NCBI GenBank assembly: GCA_000531095.1
Contig: HG799464.1
Coordinates: 139,719-203,718, forward strand
From: Gemmata massiliana
GTDB taxonomy: Bacteria; Planctomycetota; Planctomycetia; Gemmatales; Gemmataceae
Direction: 5' to 3'
DNA: 64,000 nucleotides
Shown here piece after piece: positions 1,363-63,132 of the stretch. The notes below the pieces were generated by a model. It worked only from the letters and a program-made list of their open reading frames with translations. It did not search any database and was not told the origin of the DNA. The position numbers were made by a program, and so were the translations under genes. Positions within the stretch are counted from its first letter, which is position 1. Each line of letters opens with the position of its first letter.

Positions 1363-3006
1363 CTATCGGACAGGCGCGGACGCAACCGACGCGGGTAGAG
1401 TTTGGACTTTCCCGTCTCGGAGCACGACCCGATACCGCGGTTGGGGCGCGGACATCCATTCGTTAAACACGATCTGCGTGGTGCGGCGGTTGTGGATCTT
1501 CACCACGGGATCGGACGCCGTATAGTCGATCTCGAAGCTGAAGCCCGGTTCGCGCCGGTGCGCGTCCACGAACGTTTGGACGGCTCGTAACGCGCGCGTC
1601 AGTTCTTGTTCTTGCTGCGTTACCGTGAGGTTTGCCTCGCGGATGTGTTCGGCCCCCAGGGTGCTGAGGGCGAGAAGTCCGATCACCAACCCGGTGCGGA
1701 TGCGACCGCCCCACGAACCGACCGCGAACCACGCGGCCGATACCGCCAGCAGCCCGAACAGCAGTGCGGTGTAGGCGTAGTACGAGTTCGAGCTGAGGAT
1801 GTACGGCGTGGGGCGCATGTTCATTCGGCCGAGCACGGTCATCGCACCGTAAGCGGCGTACAGTGCTGTCGGCAGCAGTAACGTAAGCAGCGGTAACCGT
1901 GCCCGTGTGCCAACGAGTTGCCACAGCCCCACACATCCCAAGAGTACGGCTGCTCCGAGCACGGCGATCGATGCGGCCACTGCCGGTGACAGGAACCGCA
2001 GCCGGATCTTCCAATCCAGGCTTTCTGCGATCTGGAGGCGCTGTCCGCTGTACGTCGTCTGAACCAGTGAGGGGAAGAACGGCTGGACCGCGGTGTAACT
2101 TCCGTAGCGCACGGAGTGTTCGAGCGTCGCGCGCGTGAGCGCTTGGTCCACGATGGCTGGCCCCAGATTGTCGGCGACGTAGTTCCCGCGGTGGGCACGT
2201 AAGTCGATTCGATTAGTCGTCTGGTAGACGACCATGATTGAAGCGAACGCCGCGACCACGAGTGCCGCGCGCTTCATTCCGATTTGCGGGAGGAGTACAG
2301 CCGCCGTAAACGCGCCGGCAAGGACGGCGTAGAGCTGGCCCAACTCGTAAGTGAACGCCGAGAGGAGCGTCAGTACCCATGCTCCCCAGAGGTACCCGCG
2401 CGCAGGGGGGCCATTCTGCATGCTGCTCGCGTACCGGAGTAAGCAACTCACGGAGCCGAGGAGAAACAGCAGGAACAGCAGATAACCGTGCAGGTGGCTC
2501 CAGATGACGAGTTCCTGACCGCACGGGTTGAGCGCGAAGAACGCGAGCGTGGCGTAGATGAGGTAGTCGCGTCCACTATCCGATGTGGACGGTCCTTCGC
2601 TCGGCGGGCGAACGATATTCGCGATCTGGCGCAGGAGCACGAGAAACAGTACGCAGGTGGCGCAGTGGAGAGCAATGCCGAACCCTTGCGTGAGTGCGAG
2701 ATTACCCTCGAACGCGGTCTTTTCTGCCGCGAGCAGCGCGAACAGGACGGGCCGGAACAGATCCGTGTCGCCCGGCATCATTTGCCGCGTGCGGTTGTAA
2801 GAGTACGAGTGACGCAGGGCGTCGAAGAACGAGTAATCGTTCATCGTATCGACGAGGTAGCACCACTGGTCCGCCCGAGGGGGGTGCTTCAACGAGGGTG
2901 CGTGCGCCGTCATCACGAACCCGAACACGCCAGCGAGGACGAGAAGATCCGTGACGGTCCGCCGACCGATCGGGGTACGGCTCCATTCCGCGAGTCGGCG
3001 AATCAT
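1363..3006 (-). CDS. Polytopic membrane protein, possible GT-C type glycosyltransferase
   Basis: A 547-residue integral membrane protein with about ten hydrophobic segments. The first is near residues 18-34, followed by a polar loop (~residues 40-90) rich in aromatic and acidic residues, then evenly spaced helices to ~residue 450. The C-terminal ~90 residues are soluble. The architecture (first helix, large external loop with acidic residues, many helices, soluble tail) resembles GT-C lipid-linked-sugar transferases and O-mannosyltransferases, but I do not see a decisive motif. It starts 33 bp after the stop of a family 2 glycosyltransferase that looks like a polyprenyl-phosphate sugar synthase, which fits a donor-maker/user pair. 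That link is inference. Confidence 0.75.
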   Translation of the reverse strand: MIRRLAEWSRTPIGRRTVTDLLVLAGVFGFVMTAHAPSLKHPPRADQWCYLVDTMNDYSFFDALRHSYSYNRTRQMMPGDTDLFRPVLFALLAAEKTAFEGNLALTQGFGIALHCATCVLFLVLLRQIANIVRPPSEGPSTSDSGRDYLIYATLAFFALNPCGQELVIWSHLHGYLLFLLFLLGSVSCLLRYASSMQNGPPARGYLWGAWVLTLLSAFTYELGQLYAVLAGAFTAAVLLPQIGMKRAALVVAAFASIMVVYQTTNRIDLRAHRGNYVADNLGPAIVDQALTRATLEHSVRYGSYTAVQPFFPSLVQTTYSGQRLQIAESLDWKIRLRFLSPAVAASIAVLGAAVLLGCVGLWQLVGTRARLPLLTLLLPTALYAAYGAMTVLGRMNMRPTPYILSSNSYYAYTALLFGLLAVSAAWFAVGSWGGRIRTGLVIGLLALSTLGAEHIREANLTVTQQEQELTRALRAVQTFVDAHRREPGFSFEIDYTASDPVVKIHNRRTTQIVFNEWMSAPQPRYRVVLRDGKVQTLPASVASAPVR

Positions 3007-3039
3007 CCGTGGCGCGCCTCAAGGTGGTGATTTCGGCGC

Positions 3040-3825
3040 TCAGCGCCAGAGGAAGAAATCCCGGAGGAACTGGAAGTAGTACGACGCGCCCCACCGCAGC
3101 ACGCGGAGCTTGCGCTCGCCGCCGATCCGAGGGGGCTCATCCCCGGCGATCTCAGCGATCTTGAGGCGCCGACGGGCCGCGCGCACGGAGAGCAGCGGTT
3201 CCCAACTGATCCGGCACCCGAACAGGCGCTCGGGCGTTTGGTACCACCGGTCCTGATCGAGTTCCAGTTCGCGGACGAGACGAGTTCGGTACGCTCGGTA
3301 GATCACCATCGCATCGGTGTACCGGCCCCCGTGGAGCAGGTTCACCGTGCGCGTGAACAGCCAGTTCCCGAACGCGGTCACCCAGTCGTCGTCCGTGCTC
3401 TTCGCCGGGGGCTTGTACCGCGACACGATCACCATGTCGTACCCCTCGTCGATCTTGGCGACGAGGTCGACGAGCAGGTCGGGGATGCTGTTCCCGTCCG
3501 GGCTGAAGGTGACCACCACGTCCCCGCGCACCTTCGGGAGCACTTCCATGTACGCCTGGCGGATGCCGGGTTCACTCTGGACGTGAACCTCGTACCCGCT
3601 CCCCCGCGCCCACTCGACCGTACCGTCGGTGGACCCGCCGTCCAGAATGATGATCTGGTCCACCCATTCGGGGCGGATTTGCGGCATGATCGCCTTCATG
3701 CCGTCGATCTCGTTGAGCGTCGGCACGACGAGCGTCACCGTGCAGGTGCGCGCGGGAGACATCGGGTGGTCCCACGCCTCGATCGGCTGGTGGGTGGGAT
3801 CGGGATTTTGGAGGAGCGGGGCCAT
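3040..3825 (-). CDS. Glycosyltransferase family 2, polyprenyl-phosphate sugar synthase-like
   Basis: GT-A fold glycosyltransferase of about 261 residues. It shows the family 2 nucleotide-binding opening TLVVPTLNEIDG (residues 31-42), LDGGSTDGT (61-69) and the metal-site region TFSPDGNS (~106-113). There is no C-terminal membrane anchor. The nearest described families are DPM1-type dolichol/polyprenyl-phosphate mannosyl- or glucosyltransferases, which act at the inner face of the cytoplasmic membrane. The second Met (position 3762, MSPARTCTV) lies closer to the conserved core and may be the true start. First gene of a minus-strand cluster with the membrane protein 33 bp downstream. Family sure; sugar and acceptor unknown. 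Confidence 0.85.
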   Translation of the reverse strand: MAPLLQNPDPTHQPIEAWDHPMSPARTCTVTLVVPTLNEIDGMKAIMPQIRPEWVDQIIILDGGSTDGTVEWARGSGYEVHVQSEPGIRQAYMEVLPKVRGDVVVTFSPDGNSIPDLLVDLVAKIDEGYDMVIVSRYKPPAKSTDDDWVTAFGNWLFTRTVNLLHGGRYTDAMVIYRAYRTRLVRELELDQDRWYQTPERLFGCRISWEPLLSVRAARRRLKIAEIAGDEPPRIGGERKLRVLRWGASYYFQFLRDFFLWR

Positions 3826-4119
3826 ATGAACGATAACCCGCCGATTCGGGGGTAGGGGCGACGCGGGGTTATAGGAGAAGTGCGTGATCGGGTCAATCGC
3901 GACCGTGCGTTCCGAGTGATATGCAGGAAATGCCGTTATAGACGGTATTTACGGCGAATTGTGTGGAGTAAACGACTTTCGCGGCTCAATACCGACCGCA
4001 TTCGTGCGAATTAGGCAACAGGCTGGTTGTTCGCGACAAACTACGATTCGCAGAATCACAGGAGGTGCGCAAATTGGCGCGTCTGATCGCACCCGGCTGC
4101 GGGATTCCTTTTACTGATT

Positions 4120-4707
4120 GTGGAACGCGACTCGGAACAGACCGGACCGGCGACTCCCGAAGCCGACCGGATTGTGGCGGAAGTGCTCGCCGGTGACACC
4201 TCGGCGTTCGCGGGGCTGGTGCGCCTGTATCAGGAGAGCGTGTGGCGCATCGCCGCGGCCGTGCTCCGGGACCGCGACGCGACCGAAAATCTCGTGCAAC
4301 AAGTGTTCGTGGACGCTTACTTTCACCTGGATCAATACGCGCCCGGTACGGACTTCGGCGCGTGGGTGCGCACGGTCGCGCGAAACCGCTTGCGGAAAGA
4401 GCTGCGGAGCGCGGGGCGCGAGGACCGGCGGTTGGCCGTGTACCGCGAACGGCTCGCGGAACGCCTCCGGGCCGAAGCCGGTTCGACGAGCGACGATTCC
4501 GAGAGCTTCGTCGAGGCACTCCGCGGGTGCCGGGAGCAACTCCCACCGCGCGACGCCGTACTCGTGAACTTGCGGTACGAAAAGGGACTGACTTTCGAGG
4601 CCATTGCCGAGAAGCAGGGGCAGACGCCCGAAGCTGTTCAGCGAATGATTTCGCGCATCCGGTTCCGGCTGCGTGACTGTATCCAGAACAAGCTCAACGA
4701 CGCATGA
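4120..4707 (+). CDS. ECF-type RNA polymerase sigma factor
   Basis: A 195-residue sigma-70 family protein with only regions 2 and 4. Region 2 (about residues 28-96) includes DATENLVQQVFVDAY, the DA-E--VQ-VF helix typical of ECF sigmas, and WVRTVARNR. Region 4 (about 138-192) includes LPPRDAVLVNLRYEKGLTFEAIA and a helix-turn-helix. The start is GTG at 4120; an in-frame TGA at 4084 rules out a start further upstream. Its stop overlaps the ATG of the next gene (ATGA at 4704-4707), so the FecR/WD40 membrane protein is translationally coupled and is probably its regulator. The family assignment is secure, the regulon unknown. Confidence 0.93.
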   Translation: MERDSEQTGPATPEADRIVAEVLAGDTSAFAGLVRLYQESVWRIAAAVLRDRDATENLVQQVFVDAYFHLDQYAPGTDFGAWVRTVARNRLRKELRSAGREDRRLAVYRERLAERLRAEAGSTSDDSESFVEALRGCREQLPPRDAVLVNLRYEKGLTFEAIAEKQGQTPEAVQRMISRIRFRLRDCIQNKLNDA

Positions 4708-6578
4708 CTCGCATCGCCGAACTCACCCTGCGCCTGATCGATCACGCCCTTACCGACGCCGAGGACGCTGAACTCGACGCGCTCATTACGGCCGATCCCG
4801 AAGCAGAAGCGGAACACCTCGCACTGCTCGAACTCGAAGCGGAACTCCGCGGGTTACGCACCGGCTTTGATCTGTCCGACGCGACGCTCGCGATGGTGCG
4901 CAACGCCCAAACGGAAAGCACGACGGACGCGGTGATGGCCGAGATCGCGGACTTGGCTCCGCCTACTTGGGCGGCACGAGTCGAACCGGTGGTCGTGGCA
5001 AGCGCAGAACCGCGTGTGCGCCGGCGATTATGGGCCGGCGTGGTGGCGCTGGCCACGTGTGCGGCGGTTGTTGCGTTTGCAGTGTGGGTGGTCAGTAAGC
5101 CCGCTGAAATTGTTCAGCCCAAACCGGATGAACCGGCTCTTGAAACACGAGCCTTTGCGAAACTGTCGCGGAAGGAGGGTATCGTTGAGGTGCTCGATCC
5201 CGCGGGCGACGCGATTCTTGCCGAGGAGGGGGCGGACCTTCCCGCAGGGTTCACTCTTCGTACCGTGGGAGACGATAGCCATGCGGTCGTGGATTTGATC
5301 TCCGATCAGTCACGATTCGAGATCGAACCGGATTCTGTCGTGCGGTTCCGGGACGGCACACCAGAAAACGCGACCAAGCCGCAACTGTTCCTCGCGGCCG
5401 GCCAGCTAACGGCTGCAATCACCCCCCAAGCCAATCGCCCGATGGTTGTTGGTACACCAGTGGCGGAAGTGTCCACGCGGAGCGGGCTGTTTGTTGTTTC
5501 TTCGGCCGGTCCCGATTCCGCTCGGGTGGACATTAAGAAGGGGAAGGTGGAGCTGGTTCGTGCAGCGGCTCCGAAGCCCGTGCCGGTCGGGGTCGGGTCG
5601 GCGCTCGTGAACGCGGGCTTCGACAAAGTTCACATCGAGAAATCGTGGAACGTGGACCGTTCGCCGAAGAAGACATTCGCGGTTCCCGGGCACCGCGATG
5701 TGATATTCTCGCCCGACGGCTCCGAGATCTGGGCCGCGAACGGGCGGATGTTCACGCGCTGGACCGAAACCGGACCTGTCGAACTCAGTTTCTACGCGAA
5801 GAAGCTTGAAGGCGCGGCCGCGTTCACGCGGAACAAGCGCCTGCTAGTGGCGTTCCGCGGCGAAAAAGACGACCGGGTACTGGTCCGCACGCTTCCCGAC
5901 GGCGGGGAACATGCCGCAATCAACGTGCGCCCGAACGAGGCTCGGTTGTGGACCGTAGCGCCCGATGCGTCCTGGCTCGCGCTGGTGGAACCACGGCCGA
6001 GCAAGCGGGTTCGCGTGTTCGACGGCGCGACGGGGGACGAGCGATTCGTGCGCGATTTCGACGAGAACGTGGGGGGGATCGCCGCCAGCCCCGACGCGCG
6101 TGTGCTCGCAGTCGGGTTGATCGAGCCGGGCCGCAGCGCGAACAACAAGGTCGCACTGCTCGATGCCGTGACCGGTGAGCGTTTTGCCGCACTCGCGACC
6201 CCGAAGAAGCCGATGACGGCCCTGGCCTACTCGGACGACGGTCGGTTGCTCGCGGTCGGTTTCAACGGCATCATTCAACTTTGGGACGTGCGCAACCGCG
6301 AACTGCTCCGCTCGATCACCGGTTTCGAGCGGGCGCTAACGTGCTTGGCGTTCTCGCCCAACGGCAAGCGCCTCGCGGCCGGTACTCCGGACGGTCACGT
6401 GTGGTTGTGGAACACCGAAACGGCTCAGCAAACGCAGCTCATCGAAACCGGCGGGCGTGGGGTAAGGTCGATCGCGTTCCACCCCACGGGCAAGGAACTC
6501 ATCACTGTGGCGCCGGGCACTCCGGTCGCGGTTTGGGACGTGAATGAAACATTTTCTGGATCTCACGCTATTCAGTGA
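4704..6578 (+). CDS. FecR-like/WD40 membrane protein, probable anti-sigma or sensor partner
   Basis: A 624-residue protein. An acidic, helical N-terminal domain (1-100) is placed like an anti-sigma domain but has no zinc-finger cysteines. One transmembrane helix follows at ~110-130. A FecR-type beta domain (~175-310) reads as in surface sensors ('FEIEPDSVVRF', 'LAAGQLTAAI', 'VSTRSGLFVVSS'). The rest (~325-620) is a beta-propeller of WD40-type repeats with blades such as IQLWDVRNRELLRSI and VWLWNTETAQQ. It begins inside the sigma gene's stop codon (ATGA). Inference: the cytoplasmic N terminus holds the sigma factor while the outer part senses an envelope or ligand signal. A gene of the same logic, but fused to its sigma, lies at 58550. 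Confidence 0.85.
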   Translation: MTRIAELTLRLIDHALTDAEDAELDALITADPEAEAEHLALLELEAELRGLRTGFDLSDATLAMVRNAQTESTTDAVMAEIADLAPPTWAARVEPVVVASAEPRVRRRLWAGVVALATCAAVVAFAVWVVSKPAEIVQPKPDEPALETRAFAKLSRKEGIVEVLDPAGDAILAEEGADLPAGFTLRTVGDDSHAVVDLISDQSRFEIEPDSVVRFRDGTPENATKPQLFLAAGQLTAAITPQANRPMVVGTPVAEVSTRSGLFVVSSAGPDSARVDIKKGKVELVRAAAPKPVPVGVGSALVNAGFDKVHIEKSWNVDRSPKKTFAVPGHRDVIFSPDGSEIWAANGRMFTRWTETGPVELSFYAKKLEGAAAFTRNKRLLVAFRGEKDDRVLVRTLPDGGEHAAINVRPNEARLWTVAPDASWLALVEPRPSKRVRVFDGATGDERFVRDFDENVGGIAASPDARVLAVGLIEPGRSANNKVALLDAVTGERFAALATPKKPMTALAYSDDGRLLAVGFNGIIQLWDVRNRELLRSITGFERALTCLAFSPNGKRLAAGTPDGHVWLWNTETAQQTQLIETGGRGVRSIAFHPTGKELITVAPGTPVAVWDVNETFSGSHAIQ

Positions 6579-57039: not shown

Positions 57040-58425
57040 TTATTGGAATGCGCGGTGTTGCCGGCGGCGGTCGCTCACGAACTCTTCCGCGGTGTTGCGC
57101 GCGATTACTTCGTACAGAATCGCCTGTTTGTCGCCGTATTTACGGAGGATGCGCCCGAGGCGCTGCACGTTTTCGGTCGCACTTCCAGTGCCCGAAAGCA
57201 CGATCCCCACGCCCGCGGCCGGTACGTCGACACCCTCGTTGAGCACTTGGCACGTCACGACCGCGTTGAACGCTCCCGCGTGGAAGTTGCTGAGAATCGC
57301 TTTGCGCTCTTTCGGCTTGGTCTGGTTCGTCATCGCGGGGATGAGGTACCGGCGTGCGATCTCGTACACAGTGGCGTTGTCCGCGGTGAAGATCAGGACG
57401 CGGTCGTTCGCGTGCCGGACGAGTAAGTCTTCAAGAAGCTTAAATTTCCCGCTCGCGGCCTGAACGATGCGCTTTTGCTCGCGGTAGGCGCGGATCGCCT
57501 TCCAGCCGTCGGGCGACTTACTAGCTTCAAAGAGGAACCGGCGGAACCCGTCCGGCCCGCTCATGCTGATGCCGCGCTCGGCCGTGAATTTCTTGTACTC
57601 TTCGCGACAGTTGCGGTACGTTTCCTCTTCTTCCTGCGTGAGGTTGACGAAAACCTGTCGCGTCTCGTAGGGCGCGAGGAACTCCCCCGCCACGTCCGTG
57701 ATGTCGAGCCGGTACGAGATGGGGCCGATCAGTTGCGGGAACATCTGCTCGCCGCCGTCCGCGCGCTCGGGCGTGGCCGTCAGTCCCAGGCGGAACGGGG
57801 CGAGGCTCGCGTTCGCGGCTTGGGAGTACGATTCGCCGGGCAAGTGGTGGCACTCATCGAAGATGATGAGGCCGTACTTGTTCGACCACTTCTCCAAATG
57901 GATGTAGGCCGAGTCGTAGGTGGTGACGGTGAGCGACTGAAAGTTGTGCTCGTTTCCGCCGACCATGCCGACCGTGACGCCGAAGGACTGCTCCAGTTCG
58001 CGCGCCCACTGTACCATCAGGTCGATCTTCGGTGTGACGACAATCGTGGGTCGACTCACTTTTTCGATGCACAGGAACGCCACGAACGTTTTCCCAGTCC
58101 CGGTCGGCATCACGACCACGCCGCGGCGTCCGCCCTTCATCCACCCGTTTAGGGCATTCAGTTGGTAGTCGCGCGGGGTACGTTCCGCGTTCAACTTCCA
58201 ACCGGACGGTTCGTTCGACCACCCGCGTGCGGTGTCTTCGTAGGGGATCTTCTCGCGGATCAACTGTTCGACGATGGCCCGGTAGTGCCGCCCCTGAGCG
58301 CGGTGGGCAGTAGTGCGCGGGTCGAACACCACGCCGGGAAGCGTGTTGAAGACGAACCCGGGTGGGCCACCCGTCACTATTACGGTGCCGCGATCGTAAC
58401 TCAGCGCAACCGGTGTATCGCTCAT
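57040..58425 (-). CDS. XPB-type SF2 DNA helicase
   Basis: A 461-residue helicase of the Rad25/XPB family, the size of archaeal and bacterial XPB. An N-terminal ~80-residue damage-recognition-like domain precedes RecA lobe 1: PRDYQLNAL, Walker A PTGTGKT (107-113), motif II DECHH (190-194), motif III LGLTATPE. The next residues are RAD (221-223) where XPB normally has its RED motif. A helical thumb-like insert (~265-325) and lobe 2 follow, with VLIFTADNATVYEIA, NEGVDVP and motif VI QRLGRILRK (421-429). It should translocate or melt DNA with 3'-5' polarity. Paired with the DUF790 nuclease gene downstream. Confidence 0.93.
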   Translation of the reverse strand: MSDTPVALSYDRGTVIVTGGPPGFVFNTLPGVVFDPRTTAHRAQGRHYRAIVEQLIREKIPYEDTARGWSNEPSGWKLNAERTPRDYQLNALNGWMKGGRRGVVVMPTGTGKTFVAFLCIEKVSRPTIVVTPKIDLMVQWARELEQSFGVTVGMVGGNEHNFQSLTVTTYDSAYIHLEKWSNKYGLIIFDECHHLPGESYSQAANASLAPFRLGLTATPERADGGEQMFPQLIGPISYRLDITDVAGEFLAPYETRQVFVNLTQEEEETYRNCREEYKKFTAERGISMSGPDGFRRFLFEASKSPDGWKAIRAYREQKRIVQAASGKFKLLEDLLVRHANDRVLIFTADNATVYEIARRYLIPAMTNQTKPKERKAILSNFHAGAFNAVVTCQVLNEGVDVPAAGVGIVLSGTGSATENVQRLGRILRKYGDKQAILYEVIARNTAEEFVSDRRRQHRAFQ

Positions 58426-58549: not shown

Positions 58550-60670
58550 ATGAACGCGACCCGACCGGCAGAAATCCTGCGGCAACTGGAGCAATCCGGT
58601 GCGACCGATGTCGAACTGCTTGCCCGCTTTGCTTCCACCAAGGACGCGGTCGCGTTCGAGACTCTGGTGCGGCGACACGGGGCACTAGTGCTGGGCGTAT
58701 GCCGGCGCGTGACTCGGAACCCGCACGACGCCGAAGACGCTTTTCAGGCGACGTTTCTGGTGCTCGCGCAGAAGGCCGGTGCGCTCCGGAACGCCGCACT
58801 TCTCGGAAACTGGTTGTACGGCGTCGCGTTCCGGATCGCGTATCGGGCGCGACGAGCGACGGGTCGGCGCCGAGCGCGGGAGGTCACGATGGCGAACCTA
58901 CCCGAGTACCCCGTATCCGACTCCGTCAGCGTGATGCCGGAGTTGGTCCCGATTCTGGACGAGGAACTCGCCGCGCTCGCGGAGTGCTATCGCGAGGCGA
59001 TCGTCTTGTGTGACCTGCGCGGCGCTTCCCGCGAAGAGGCAGCTGCGGCTTTGGGTGTTCCCGAAGGCACGCTTTCGAGTCGGCTGGCCAATGGGCGCAA
59101 GAAGCTCGCGGTGCGTCTTGCGAAACGCGGAATCGCTCTGCCGTTCGTGCTTTTACCCACGACTGTCTCCGAACTTCAGGCCGCAACGATGCTTCCGAAC
59201 GAGTTACTCACGAAAACCTGTGGGCTGATTGCGGATTATTCGGCTAGCGGTGCCGTTCCAAGTCCGCTTGTCAAGCTTACTCAAGGGGGATTCACCGTGC
59301 GCAAGACGCTTATGTTCGGGTTAGCGCTTACAGTTGCGGTGACGGGAGCCGTATTTGCGGCAGCCCCGCGTGAAAATACGCTACTACCTGATCCGCCGAA
59401 GGTGCCGGCAGTTGTGGAGATACCAACGGAGCAACCAAAACCCAAAGAAGAAGTGAAGACAGTTGAGAAGGCAACCGCATACGCTGCCGCACCGAAGCTT
59501 CGGCACTCTTTTGACTTGTCCGTGGGTTGGGGACCGACCGTGGTTTGGAACGCAACTGGCACGCACCTCGCGGTCGCTGGGTTGGAACACGGTGGAGCTT
59601 GGGGCGGTCCGGGGAACCGTCCGGTTGTTTGGTTGTTTGGCACCACAGGCGATTCTAAACCAATTGCCGGTCATCCTGATGCTGGGGCGCACCTCGTTGC
59701 TGTTGCACCGGATGGCAAAGGTATCATTACCGACCTTCGGGAGTACAAGCTGATTAGTGGCCACCACCACTTGGCCTACTGGTCCGAAAGCAACAACCAA
59801 CCGCCCGGCGGGGGCGGTGAGGGACCAGGCCCAGCCTCATTGGTGAAACCAACGCTGGTCATTTCCAAGGCGGTCAAACTCGATTCCACCGAAACACACG
59901 GTTACACGTTTGCAGCCGAAGGAAAGACATTTCGCACGGTGGCGTGGGAAGACACGGCGATCAGTGGCCCAGAGACACTCGAAGTTCTGGAGGTGGACGC
60001 AGCGAACGGAAAGACCATCAAACCATTGATGAAAGTCAAATATGGCGAATCAACCTTATCACCAGACGGGAAGCGACTTGCCGTTCTTGATAAAGAGATG
60101 ACGAAAGTGACTGTTTACGACGTGGACCGTGGAGAGAAGTTGTCGGAATCCACATTGCCGACCGATTCAACCGTTGAACTCCCTGATGGCAAAACGGTAG
60201 GCATCCCGAGCCATTCCGAGCCACAGCTTCTCAAATTCTCTCCAGACGGGCGCCGGCTCGTTGTTTCTCGTGGAATCGGGCACAGCCGAGTTCTAAACAC
60301 CGATACGGGGGCCGCGCTTCCGCGGTTGGAGGGAACCTCGCTTGCAGAAGTGCATTTTGATTCGCACGCTTTCAGCGGTGACGGTCGATTACTCGCAGCC
60401 GTGCGCCGAGTTTACAAGATTAGCGTGAAAAACCCTGGCCCGAAGGCCGGTCGCGGAGCTGTGGAACCGACGTCATTGTCGGGAAATGATTGGATTCTGA
60501 CGGTTTGGGACACGCAAACCGGGAAAGTGCTGAAGTCCTGGAAGAGCAGTAGCGGAGTGCGATGGGCGTTTTGCCCGACAAACCCGCTCCTTGCGGTTTT
60601 GGAAGAGAATGGGGTGGGCAACACCCGCGTCGGGTTCTGGGATTTTGCCGCGGAGGTGGAGAAGAAGTAG
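58550..60670 (+). CDS. ECF sigma factor fused to membrane helix and WD40-like propeller
   Basis: 706 residues. Residues 1-~205 are a planctomycete ECF sigma: FETLVRRHGALVLGVCRRV, HDAEDAFQATFLVLAQKA (region 2) and LDEELAALAECYREAIVLCDLRG (cut) with the region 4 helix-turn-helix EEAAAALGVPEGTLSSRLANG (cut). A linker with LPFVLLPTTVS leads to one transmembrane helix near residue ~245-265 (LMFGLALTVAVTGAVFAAA). A Pro/Glu/Lys-rich spacer follows, then a beta-propeller-like C-terminal region with repeats such as GKRLAVLDKEMTKVTVYDV and DWILTVWDTQTGKVLKSW. This puts the sigma factor, anchor and sensor in one chain. ATG at 58550 follows GGAAGG. Release would presumably need proteolysis (inference). 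Confidence 0.92.
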   Translation: MNATRPAEILRQLEQSGATDVELLARFASTKDAVAFETLVRRHGALVLGVCRRVTRNPHDAEDAFQATFLVLAQKAGALRNAALLGNWLYGVAFRIAYRARRATGRRRAREVTMANLPEYPVSDSVSVMPELVPILDEELAALAECYREAIVLCDLRGASREEAAAALGVPEGTLSSRLANGRKKLAVRLAKRGIALPFVLLPTTVSELQAATMLPNELLTKTCGLIADYSASGAVPSPLVKLTQGGFTVRKTLMFGLALTVAVTGAVFAAAPRENTLLPDPPKVPAVVEIPTEQPKPKEEVKTVEKATAYAAAPKLRHSFDLSVGWGPTVVWNATGTHLAVAGLEHGGAWGGPGNRPVVWLFGTTGDSKPIAGHPDAGAHLVAVAPDGKGIITDLREYKLISGHHHLAYWSESNNQPPGGGGEGPGPASLVKPTLVISKAVKLDSTETHGYTFAAEGKTFRTVAWEDTAISGPETLEVLEVDAANGKTIKPLMKVKYGESTLSPDGKRLAVLDKEMTKVTVYDVDRGEKLSESTLPTDSTVELPDGKTVGIPSHSEPQLLKFSPDGRRLVVSRGIGHSRVLNTDTGAALPRLEGTSLAEVHFDSHAFSGDGRLLAAVRRVYKISVKNPGPKAGRGAVEPTSLSGNDWILTVWDTQTGKVLKSWKSSSGVRWAFCPTNPLLAVLEENGVGNTRVGFWDFAAEVEKK

Positions 60671-60735
60671 CTCCGTGCTTGACACCTTCGGCTCCGGGTG
60701 CGACGGTAAGAGCACTTCGCACTTGGAGCTTCATC

Positions 60736-61140
60736 ATGTCGGCGCTGACTCTTCACGCAAACACTGCTGGCGATCTGATGAGCGCGGCGCCGGTTTCGCT
60801 GGTCGATACTGCGACCGTTGCGGAAGCGTCCGCGTTCCTCACCGAGCGCGGGTTCGGTGCTGCGGTGGTAATCAATCCCGGAGGGCACCCCGTCGGCGTC
60901 GTCACAAAGACGGACATCTTGCACCACGCCCGTCACGCGGGTGGTACTAGCCCGAACGACACCACTCCGGTAACGAGCGTCATGACACCGGCTGTGTACA
61001 CGATCCGCGTTGAATCACCGGCGCGGTCGGTGGTGGAGCAGTTGCTCGAACTCGGTATCCACCACCTGTTTGTGGTGGACCCGAGTGGCATCGTCGTGGG
61101 GGTGATTAGCCCCGTGGACGTGCTAAAGAAACTGCGGTGA
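60736..61140 (+). CDS. Two-CBS-domain protein
   Basis: A 134-residue stand-alone pair of CBS domains (residues ~8-70 and ~76-134). Motifs: LMSAAPVSLVDTATVAEASAFL, GVVTKTDILHHARHAGG, SVMTPAVYTIRVESPARSVV (cut) and HHLFVVDPSGIVVGVISPVDVL (cut). Tandem CBS modules bind adenosyl ligands such as AMP, ATP or SAM and report energy state; as a free protein it must regulate an unknown partner. ATG at 60736 begins the first domain. The frame is open upstream into the sigma gene but not coding there. 66 bp after the sigma-propeller stop. Confidence 0.9.
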   Translation: MSALTLHANTAGDLMSAAPVSLVDTATVAEASAFLTERGFGAAVVINPGGHPVGVVTKTDILHHARHAGGTSPNDTTPVTSVMTPAVYTIRVESPARSVVEQLLELGIHHLFVVDPSGIVVGVISPVDVLKKLR

Positions 61141-61343: not shown

Positions 61344-61548
61344 TGTTCTCTCCTCACTTCGGCTGACCGTTCATCATCGACTTTTTAACGCGGGGCTTCC
61401 AGTCGGTGTTGGTCCGTAACGTGAAGTTCGGACTCAGGGGTCCGATTTGTCGCTCCAGATCGATTGTCCGCGCGCTATAATTAGTTCAATTGGACACGTC
61501 GGCATTCGCGCCGGCCCTCGATTCGATCACGGCACCGCCCGAATCGGA

Positions 61549-63132
61549 ATGCACTTGGACTCGGCCGAAGACCTGATGCAAGCTCTGCGGGTCAGCGGGC
61601 TGTTCACTCCCGAACAGCTCCGGGCGGTGACGCGCGTCCTGAACTCGTTTGGGGCGGACCTACAGGGCGGGATGCGGTACATCGTTCACCGCGAACTCGT
61701 TACCCGGTATCAGCTCGGCAAAATCTTCCGCGGAAAGGTCGCGGACCTCATCGTCGGCCCCTACGTCGTGCTCGACAAAATCGGCGAGGGCGGCATGGGG
61801 AAGGTGTTCCGCGCCCGCCACGTTCAACTGGACCGCACGGTCGCGCTAAAGGTGATTCGCCCGGGGCTTGTGACGAACCCCACGGTGCGCGGGCGGTACG
61901 CGCGCGAGGTGCAGGCCACGGGGAAACTCAACCACCCCAACGTCGTGCGCGTGGACGACGCGGGCGAAATCGACGGCAAATTCTACCTCGCAATGGAGTT
62001 CGTGGACGGGATCGACCTGTCCCGGATGATACGCGACTACCGGTCACTCGAAGTCATAGAGGTGTGCGAGTACGCGCGTCAGGCCGCGCTGGGGCTACAG
62101 AACGCCCACGAACACGGCTTGGTTCACCGCGACGTGAAGCCGAGCAACATCGTGGTGGCCGGTGAGCGGCATTTGCCGCAAGCGACCGAGCCCGCGGTGG
62201 TGAAGGTGCTCGATCTCGGACTGGCCCGCGCGATCGATCCGGACGATATGGTTTCGCCCGACCTCACGCGCGATCACACGGTGGTCGGTACCCCCGACTA
62301 CATGGCCCCCGAACAGGCCCGCAACTCCAAACTCGTGGACGCGCGGGCGGATCTGTACTCGCTCGGATGTACGGTCTACTTCCTGCTCACCGGTAACCCG
62401 CCGTTTCCGAACGGTGGGCCGATCGAGAAACTGATCCAACACCAAACCAATCACCCACCGGCACTCCAGTCCGTTCGGCCCGACGTTCCGGCTGGGGTCG
62501 CCGAACTGATTGCCAAACTGATGGCGAAGAAGCCGGGGGACCGGTTCGCGACTGCGGGCGAGTTTGCCGCCGCGATCGAGCCGTTCACCATCTACCCGGT
62601 CGGTGCGCCCGCGGTACCGGTGATCGCCGTTTCGGACGGCTCCACGAACAGCGCCCTTTCTGAAGACACGCACCCCCCGCGGAGCACGCTCGCGCCGGCG
62701 AGTGGTTCGTCGATCGGTACGAAACCACTACTCGACATTCCGCCCGAGCCGGCGCCGGTCCCGCAACAGATTGCGCCGTCGGACAAGACACCGCGCCCGT
62801 CCGCTCTGGAGGAACCGCTGGCGGTAATCGAACCGTCTCCCGTGCGTGCCGTAACCAACCGCCCGTCGGCGATCCGGCGAAGCGCAGCGAAAGCCCCGCC
62901 CGCGCCCGTTGAAGCACCGATGTCGCGAGCACTCAAGTGGGTTCTGATCGGCGTTGCGGTTCTGGTTCTGGTTGTTCTGGCGATTTGGGCCGCGACACTC
63001 GGTCCGGCCCCGGAACCGAATAGTCAAAGTGACGTCGAGCCGGGCACTACGCAGAAACTGGCGAACCGCGACTCCCGTCTGTCTCACGGAAGCCGCGGTG
63101 TGGCGTTCATCGGTCACTTTCCGGTGCTGTGA
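61549..63132 (+). CDS. Membrane-anchored Hanks-type serine/threonine kinase
   Basis: About 527 residues. An N-terminal helical segment (~1-70, LMQALRVSGLFTPEQLRAVTRVL (cut)) is of the kind that precedes many planctomycete kinases. The kinase domain (~72-340) has glycine loop IGEGGMGKVFRAR, catalytic Lys in VALKVIRP (~101), LVHRDVKPSNIVV, LDLGLAR (Asp-Leu-Gly in place of Asp-Phe-Gly), GTPDYMAPEQ and RADLYSLGCTVYFLLTG. A Pro/Ser-rich linker leads to one transmembrane helix (~465-487) and a ~40-residue outer tail. ATG at 61549 is preferred over the TTG at 61447. A TATAAT hexamer lies at 61476-61481. Its 3' end overlaps the convergent gene by 19 bp. Confidence 0.93.
   Translation: MHLDSAEDLMQALRVSGLFTPEQLRAVTRVLNSFGADLQGGMRYIVHRELVTRYQLGKIFRGKVADLIVGPYVVLDKIGEGGMGKVFRARHVQLDRTVALKVIRPGLVTNPTVRGRYAREVQATGKLNHPNVVRVDDAGEIDGKFYLAMEFVDGIDLSRMIRDYRSLEVIEVCEYARQAALGLQNAHEHGLVHRDVKPSNIVVAGERHLPQATEPAVVKVLDLGLARAIDPDDMVSPDLTRDHTVVGTPDYMAPEQARNSKLVDARADLYSLGCTVYFLLTGNPPFPNGGPIEKLIQHQTNHPPALQSVRPDVPAGVAELIAKLMAKKPGDRFATAGEFAAAIEPFTIYPVGAPAVPVIAVSDGSTNSALSEDTHPPRSTLAPASGSSIGTKPLLDIPPEPAPVPQQIAPSDKTPRPSALEEPLAVIEPSPVRAVTNRPSAIRRSAAKAPPAPVEAPMSRALKWVLIGVAVLVLVVLAIWAATLGPAPEPNSQSDVEPGTTQKLANRDSRLSHGSRGVAFIGHFPVL

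Follow-up and report, generated by a model that had tools for sequence, protein, structure and literature searches.

ECF57 is a Planctomycete group of extracytoplasmic function (ECF) sigma factors with a WD40-like C-terminal extension, whose WD40-like repeats are frequent but not present in every member, and conserved cysteines in sigma regions 2 and 4 (PMC8999054), and WP_015250107.1 of Singulisphaera acidiphila is one of its examples (PMC8999054). The group is filed under protein interaction in the available text of this source, with a discussion of the reducing cytoplasm. Tethered sigma factors are already known from other groups. IutY of Pseudomonas putida is an ECF243 sigma/anti-sigma hybrid (PMC8999054, PMC5411451); its activation by Prc and RseP frees the sigma part (PMC5411451). 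SCO4117 of Streptomyces coelicolor (ECF52) is a sigma factor with a C-terminal membrane portion and an outer carbohydrate-binding domain (PMC8999054). In Thermoanaerobacter tengcongensis, the ECF sigma factor Tt-RpoE1 adjoins Tt-TolB, a TolB-annotated anti-sigma factor with one membrane segment (PMC3397946). The gene described here lies at 58550-60670 on the forward strand of a 64,000-nucleotide stretch of Gemmata massiliana DNA (contig HG799464.1), which is called the window, and encodes an ECF sigma factor, a predicted membrane helix and a WD40-type propeller in one frame.

Judged by its sequence, the encoded protein resembles ECF57. It shares with this group, as far as the group is described in the available text, sigma regions 2 and 4, both cysteines, a WD40-like C-terminal part and the lack of an adjacent anti-sigma gene, and two loci of the S. 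acidiphila genome (L136 and L146) have the same sigma-helix plan. No ECF57 model occurs among the 25 listed of the 63 NCBIfam matches of the protein. The pair of cysteines, Cys51 and Cys154, fits the published idea of a link between sigma2 and sigma4 in ECF57 (PMC8999054, available text). The new element is a predicted ribosome-binding site (RBS) with an in-frame start codon just before the helix. It is likely that this one gene gives two proteins in the same frame, a tethered sigma factor and an exodomain that is exported independently.

The sigma-helix module and its outer parts

The open reading frame (ORF) is a single frame of 706 amino acids with an ATG start. An earlier note on this DNA had proposed an ECF sigma factor, a transmembrane helix and a WD40-like propeller in a single polypeptide, and this architecture was borne out by the ORF, Pfam, AlphaFold and Foldseek. 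Sigma70_r2 reaches 37.0 bits (cut-off 24) and Sigma70_r4_2 reaches 37.5 bits (cut-off 25.7) in Pfam. The AlphaFold model of the N-terminal 284 residues, made with an alignment of 64 paralogues, contains sigma2, sigma4, a confident helix at 217-233 and a helix at 248-270. All 24 Foldseek matches of this model at E <=0.001 are solved ECF sigma factors, and the TM-scores over the query are low (0.17-0.30), in our reading because the two sigma domains are placed differently. The helix at 217-233 is a candidate intramolecular restraint on the sigma domains. The propeller is marginal by sequence (PD40, 21.1 bits against a Pfam cut-off of 20.9). A 457-residue AlphaFold model covering it (19 homologues) has an all-beta body with strands from 67 to 449 and a pLDDT of at least 80 in 29 of the last 40 ten-residue blocks; among its Foldseek matches, WD40 propellers rank first (lowest E 8e-12; query-normalised TM-score 0.47).

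The window's own genome (9.27 Mb) was searched with the first 284 residues, which gave 90 matches including fragments and weak ones. At E 1e-20 there were 72 different frames, and the 65 with at least 300 amino acids form the own-paralogue set; two cut ends, L044 (no start could be assigned) and four pieces of the frame-broken L067-L069 were omitted. L014 was excluded from the 64-row alignment of this set. A second set consists of relatives from other Planctomycetes, which number at least 80; of the 80 fetched, 74 were used, after omission of six whose match ended before the helix. The sigma-linker-helix module is common to the 65 own paralogues, and at least 65 such genes thus occur in the same genome, which the earlier note missed. 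Both sigma regions are matched at 0.001 in all 65 (Pfam). Cys51 is kept in 60 and Cys154 in 63 of the 65, and each is kept in all 74 relatives. A sigma-helix profile gave 110, 27, 16 and 29 matches at 1e-25 in four other genomes of the family, where at most 150 candidates per genome were scored; the 110 belong to a genome of the same genus (G009, 10.1 Mb) and were counted differently from the 65 of the own genome. In L067, L068 and L069, the frame is broken in the sigma2-sigma4 linker while both halves are otherwise open; these may be genuine breaks or assembly errors. In L014 and at C1:1692872-1693174 of the own genome, a sigma module is followed or overlapped by a second frame that reads the sigma4-linker-helix stretch.

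The outer parts of these proteins vary. The sigma-helix modules of the window protein and its three nearest paralogues are 64-71% identical; among their outer parts, three share 30-40% identity, whereas the fourth, from L004, matches none of them significantly. When the 65 outer parts were compared all against all, they fell into groups of 23 (which holds the propellers), 5, 3 and 2, plus 32 singles. The commonest Pfam propeller model is found in 17 of the 65 at 0.001. The 42 outer parts beyond the group of 23 include RND periplasmic adaptor, secretin, secretin-N, DUF1559, PSCyt2 and BSP peptidase families, CarboxypepD_reg and TIGR03067 (six each), LRR and HEAT repeats, which have no fixed location, and a borderline LTXXQ match just above the Pfam cut-off. 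One of the 42 matches TIGR01730 at 3.7e-50, and in L018 the sigma-helix module is fused to an RND efflux adaptor (HlyD_D23, Pfam). Membership of the group of 23 needs at least 15 changes on the sigma tree, five of them forced by starred branches. Shuffled labels need 19 changes on average, and 13-15 of 500 shufflings are as low as observed. These sequence comparisons indicate that outer parts are exchanged often, though not at random.

Several loci of the own genome illustrate these combinations. The fusion of sigma factor and RND adaptor (HlyD_D23) lies at L082:5280-7406 (contig C5), with two genes of TolC-type outer-membrane efflux proteins beside it on the opposite strand (L082:495-2156 and 2188-3837). 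The sigma-helix module is fused to a secretin in L054 and to three secretin-N stretches in L077. L056 has a secretin match just below the cut-off and a weak Peptidase_MA match.

Residues 254-272 of the window protein have a mean Kyte-Doolittle hydrophobicity of 2.11. With a 19-residue mean of at least 1.6 as the criterion, a helix is present in 63 of the 65 own paralogues, and the median distance to it from where sigma4 ends is 63 residues (sd 7). The two own paralogues that fall below it are L014 (1.46), whose frame departs from the family there, and L020 (1.53). The same criterion is reached by 72 of the 74 relatives and missed by two. Net charge is higher on the sigma side than beyond the helix in 58 of the 65, with five ties, as the positive-inside rule predicts. 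A further hydrophobic segment behind the helix occurs in 2 of the 65. A chance run of hydrophobic residues is possible for the window protein alone but is ruled out by the 65 paralogues.

Membrane insertion of the helix is the best reading because of its near-fixed position, the charge rule and the several outer domains of normally extracytoplasmic kinds. RND adaptors, secretins, secretin-N, DUF1559, PSCyt2, BSP peptidase and LTXXQ domains normally lie outside the cytoplasm, and these outer-domain types therefore support an inside-to-outside orientation, in which the N-terminus would be inside and the C-terminus outside. On the same family-wide position, charge rule and outer domains, the insertion of the hydrophobic segment, on which the earlier note depended, stood up. 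Two observations point in the other direction. The hydrophobicity of the window helix is reached by 6% of shuffles of the protein's own post-sigma part. Moreover, 24 of the 65 own paralogues (L066, L078 and L065 are examples) have an extra stretch of at least 1.6 between sigma4 and the helix, mostly weaker than the helix and reaching 1.9 or more in five; if both stretches were inserted, the outer part of these proteins would be inside. No such extra stretch is present in the window protein, where the best value before the helix is 1.24.

The published ECF57 proposal implies another arrangement, in which the helix is not inserted and the ECF57 sigma factor works in the cytoplasm, with its WD40 part binding partners there. 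The listing of ECF57 under protein interaction and the discussion of the reducing cytoplasm (PMC8999054, available text), the frequent binding of proteins by WD40 domains and the moderate hydrophobicity of the window helix are consistent with it. However, the position and charge bias of the helix across 65 paralogues speak against it, as do RND adaptor, secretin and DUF1559 exodomains, which work outside the cytoplasm, and this arrangement is very improbable. The sigma part is very likely tethered to the membrane. The available text of PMC8999054 mentions neither a membrane helix nor an internal start for ECF57; the helix may already be reported in the papers that define the group, and its novelty is uncertain.

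Codon-level evidence for a predicted internal start

The earlier note missed a predicted translation start before the helix, for which codon-level evidence comes from three sequence sets, namely the own paralogues, the relatives and the subfamily of the window gene. The Gly just before the helix is encoded by GGA in 31 of 40 own paralogues against a background of 16% in these genes, and of 294 columns tested for codon bias this one ranks first (G 86.8; next 36.4). At the equivalent column of the relatives, GGA is used in 32 of 50 (8.0 expected). This column is the strongest by G of 350 (G 78.1; next 59.1), while per sequence one Arg column of 15 is higher. The Glu preceding this Gly is GAA in 27 of 29 relatives (12.7 expected), and a Glu that replaces the Gly is GAG in 13/13 relatives and 6/7 own paralogues, nearly always ahead of Val. 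Both variants spell a Shine-Dalgarno (SD) core, AAGGAG or GAGGT, with the start codon most often about 11 nt downstream. The aligned Met column is ATG in 35 of 63 own paralogues and 63 of 74 relatives.

All columns were scanned for an SD match of at least 4 bases together with a start codon, and the counts were compared with 100 synonymous randomisations. The pre-helix column leads in each set, with 33/63 own paralogues (20.1 expected; next column 13), 54/74 relatives (38.0 expected; next column 17) and, at codon 250, 20/22 subfamily rows (6.3 expected; next column 14). None of the 100 synonymous sets reached the observed count in any of the three. When 5 bases are required, the column is again first in own paralogues (18) and relatives (34). 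The mRNA around the site is less folded than its synonymous versions, with a mean z of +0.94 in own paralogues and +0.97 in relatives that have the Met. An SD match of at least 5 bases is found in 25 of 65 at the internal site, taken as the best of several codons, and in 25 of 65 at the N-terminal starts, a single site as placed by us; at the single aligned internal column it is found in 18 of 63. The internal RBS therefore appears to be of the order of the N-terminal RBSs of the same genes in strength.

The subfamily comprises 24 sequences, namely the window gene, three own paralogues, three of the 80 relatives chosen for likeness and 17 newly found sequences. They correspond to 22 different rows and 16 clusters at 85% identity; the frame-broken L109 was omitted. 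Codon 250 is GTG (19) or ATG (5) in all 24, and a purine-rich SD-like stretch lies about 6 nt before it in most members. The residues encoded over this stretch vary (QGG, KRG, GRG, KGR, AGG, REG and others). Among the 22 different rows, Val250 is encoded by GTG in 18 of 18, whereas the other 19 of the 20 Val columns of the alignment are mixed or without GTG. The subfamily mRNA at codon 250 is less folded than synonymous versions (mean z +1.04), compared with -0.76 to +0.02 at five control codons, which were used for this set alone. L109, which lies outside the 24, has GGAGGG followed by ATG at the equivalent site; this site and the Glu codon counts support an internal start. The predicted second product begins MRKTLMFGLALTVAVTGAVFAAAP, which to us looks like a Sec signal peptide.

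A second candidate internal start, with a GGGAGGT motif, lies at codon 114 in the sigma2-sigma4 linker. Here, SD and ATG or GTG occur together in 14 of 22 subfamily rows at 4 bases (6.2 expected) and in 13 of 22 at 5 bases (4.8 expected); in own paralogues, the count is 8 of 63 (3.3 and 2.1 expected at the two thresholds). It has the strongest anti-SD pairing energy of the codons scanned.

Several observations weigh against an internal start before the helix. The SD of the window gene itself matches over 4 bases only, and Met is missing from the aligned column in 28 of 63 own paralogues. The family-wide spacing from SD to start is most often 11 nt; of the N-terminal starts, as placed by us, 25 have an SD of at least 5 bases, and 20 of these show a spacing of 4-7 nt. 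Some other columns likewise surpass all, or nearly all, of the synonymous sets at lower counts (codon 50 in own paralogues, 13 against 5.4; codon 114 in the subfamily), and at 5 bases codon 114 leads the subfamily with 13 against 8 at codon 250. The scan of anti-SD pairing energy, taken alone, does not single out the pre-helix site. SD and start codon co-occur in own paralogues (Fisher p 0.005 at 4 bases and 0.035 at 5 bases); the association is not clear in relatives (p 0.09 and 0.77), and the tree-corrected version, with only 4 pairs, shows nothing. The synonymous null models ignore the kinship of the sequences, which is controlled for solely by the remaining columns of these sequences.

The main rival to an internal start is a pause. 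On this account there is one product, a tethered sigma factor subject to regulated proteolysis like IutY, and the SD-like element slows translation to aid targeting of the helix. SD-like pauses just before membrane segments are described in E. coli (PMC4359368, available text). The account also agrees with the excess of SD matches of at least 5 bases before the helix when no start codon is required (31/65 own paralogues against 19.4 expected, and 42/72 relatives against 27.1), and with the presence of SD in relatives, which does not clearly depend on a start codon. However, a pause needs no start codon and leaves it unexplained, yet codon 250 is GTG or ATG throughout the subfamily while the surrounding residues vary, Val250 is always GTG, and the weak mRNA folding of the site is typical of a start. 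Helix-bearing protein kinases of the own genome provide a further control. In the 21 with a helix among the best 30 of 131, there is no SD-like excess before the helix (1 against 2.4 expected), and a general pre-helix pause in this genome was rejected on this basis. No SD-like excess was found at other internal Met codons either (390 in own paralogues and 654 in relatives). A pause without a second product is accordingly unlikely. The 131 are protein-kinase domain matches, and they include a gene at 61447-63132 of the window.

These codon counts show, at the level of sequence, selection for an RBS before the helix. From them we infer initiation at GTG 59297 in the window gene, and the internal start, taken alone, is quite likely. 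It could also be the main or only source of the exodomain, with the full-length chain a minor product, which would in effect make two genes in one frame. The similar strength of internal and N-terminal RBSs would agree with this, and so would the several exodomains of exported-protein types and paralogue L014, whose frame departs from the family immediately ahead of the helix. A helix at an almost constant distance from sigma4 would be unnecessary for two independent genes, though, and the frame is open across the junction into the helix in 64 of 65 own paralogues, partly by choice, as the frame-broken L067-L069 were left out. This possibility is doubtful, and two proteins from one gene remains the preferred reading.

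The separate sigma pair and the feature coordinates

The earlier note had also placed both a split and a fused version in the window, the split one being the pair of genes at 4.1-6.6 kb. Their reading as one system did not hold, as the sigma subfamilies differ and the two propellers resemble each other only weakly (26% over 120 residues, E 3e-4, single comparison). The sigma factor of the pair reaches 161 bits against TIGR02989 (cut-off 124.6, NCBIfam), compared with 36 bits for the fused sigma factor. In its overlapping partner, a FecR domain reaches 32.2 bits (cut-off 24), and an anti-sigma model is matched weakly at 20.8 bits (cut-off 100). No FecR or anti-sigma match occurs in the fused protein among 12 Pfam families at 0.1, and the best 25 of its 63 NCBIfam matches are all sigma models. 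The pair at 4120-6578 is, by sequence, a sigma/anti-sigma-like pair of another sigma subfamily with parts of a like sort. It is not the split form of the fused system because the sigma factors belong to different subfamilies.

That the fused gene arose by joining this pair is suggested by the presence of a sigma factor, a hydrophobic segment and a propeller in both. The sigma subfamilies, the lack of FecR and anti-sigma matches in the fused protein, and the genome matches make this origin scarcely credible; at 1e-12 the genome holds only two further relatives of the pair's sigma factor, which is itself absent from the 90 matches of the fused sigma factor. It was rejected by the subfamily, genome-match and propeller comparisons. 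The coordinates of the pair and of the features of the fused gene are given in Table 1.

Table 1. Features of the fused sigma gene and of the separate sigma pair in the window
Feature	Position	Strand	Evidence
Whole gene: ECF sigma, linker, membrane helix, Pro-rich linker, WD40-type propeller	58550..60670	+	ORF, Pfam, AlphaFold
Sigma70 region 2, residues 39-106, including Cys51	58664..58867	+	Pfam Sigma70_r2
Second candidate internal RBS (GGGAGGT) and ATG (Met114), sigma2-sigma4 linker	58878..58891	+	Strongest in the window's subfamily
Sigma70 region 4, residues 136-186, including Cys154	58955..59107	+	Pfam Sigma70_r4_2
Linker helix 217-233, between sigma4 and membrane helix	59198..59248	+	AlphaFold, ten-residue block means 81, 97, 94
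Predicted internal RBS AAGGGGGA, imperfect, 4 consecutive bases exact to SD consensus	59283..59290	+	
Predicted internal start codon GTG (Val250)	59297..59299	+	Codon conservation in subfamily
Predicted second product, 457 amino acids: signal-peptide-like MRKTLMFGLALTVAVTGAVFAAA, Pro-rich linker and propeller, without sigma	59297..60670	+	
Membrane helix, residues 254-272	59309..59365	+	Hydrophobicity; AlphaFold helix 248-270
Pro-rich disordered linker	59366..59470	+	pLDDT <50 over residues 1-58 of second-product model
Beta-propeller, predicted outside the cytoplasmic membrane	59474..60661	+	AlphaFold, Foldseek
Comparison: sigma of separate pair, TIGR02989 subfamily	4120..4707	+	
Comparison: overlapping partner, weak anti-sigma match, FecR and WD40	4704..6578	+	

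The immediate neighbours of the fused gene are an XPB-like helicase (57040-58425, reverse strand) and a CBS-domain protein (60562-61140, forward strand), whose true start is uncertain; no adjacent cognate anti-sigma gene is present among them. The helicase has ResIII, XPB_DRD and ERCC3 C-terminal domains and is divergent from the sigma gene.

Proposed mechanism and known systems

The product of translation from ATG 58550 would be a sigma factor of the ECF57 type that a single helix anchors in the cytoplasmic membrane and that carries a WD40-type propeller on the outer side. Such a protein would act as a one-piece transmembrane sigma factor whose sigma part is freed once the propeller encounters something, and the linker of about 55 residues would keep the sigma part quiet until then. 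Proteolysis, by analogy with IutY, is plausible as the likeliest route of release, probably by cutting near and in the helix by a site-1 protease and then an M50 site-2 protease. The own genome has 9 matches of the M50 (site-2-protease) type, which we group into six genes. From GTG 59297, translation would yield a propeller that lacks sigma and bears a signal peptide or anchor of its own, for separate export. Tethered and free propeller would be made in a set ratio, and the free form may be a working exoprotein, a partner or a decoy. The restraint by the linker, the signal, the cutting and the target genes are guesses from relatives, and it counts against the proposal that proteolytic release, linker role and signal are drawn from analogy.

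For Gemmataceae and their kin, it is reasonably likely that there are dozens of nested sigma genes, in which a standard anchored sigma module precedes freely exchanged exported domains and the helix doubles as the signal peptide of a second protein that begins at an internal RBS. Each nested gene would then yield a sensor tied to sigma and a free copy of the same exodomain, and the state of the exodomain itself, such as the assembly of a pump adaptor, would be directly readable by transcription. How the expanded ECF57 sets of Planctomycetes work is not settled in the sources covered. Given a conserved helix and varied exported domains, ECF57-type proteins would form a large class of transmembrane sigma factors made in one piece, and for many of these genes the internal start predicts a second protein that frame-by-frame reading misses. 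Exodomains of known role, such as the RND adaptor beside TolC genes, give first guesses at the sensed signal. An internal start in a sigma/exodomain fusion is not named in the literature abstracts examined, whose coverage leaves out most subscription journals.

Among the known systems, as described in the available text of each source, IutY is like the window protein in having a sigma factor, a single membrane segment and a large outer or periplasmic regulatory part in one chain. In contrast, the outer part of IutY is an anti-sigma domain fed by an outer-membrane receptor, whereas the exodomains of the window family vary, and the window protein has no FecR or anti-sigma match and has a predicted internal start. 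SCO4117 also combines a sigma factor with a C-terminal membrane part and an outer domain, but it carries a zinc-finger domain of the anti-sigma type and belongs to another phylum and group. Tt-RpoE1 and Tt-TolB are the separate-gene counterpart of the fused plan and are close to the pair at 4.1-6.6 kb of the window; they differ from the fused gene in being two genes, and an N-terminal piece of the TolB-like protein binds the sigma factor. In Tuwongella immobilis, most ECF sigma factors are linked to WD40 domains (PMC8567305). Two of its ECF sigma factors were restricted to one detergent-soluble fraction, and another three were found in detergent-soluble fractions in single experiments (PMC8567305). 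The available text of that source does not state whether they carry a helix and does not discuss isoforms; their presence in detergent-soluble fractions is as expected if such sigma factors are membrane-bound.

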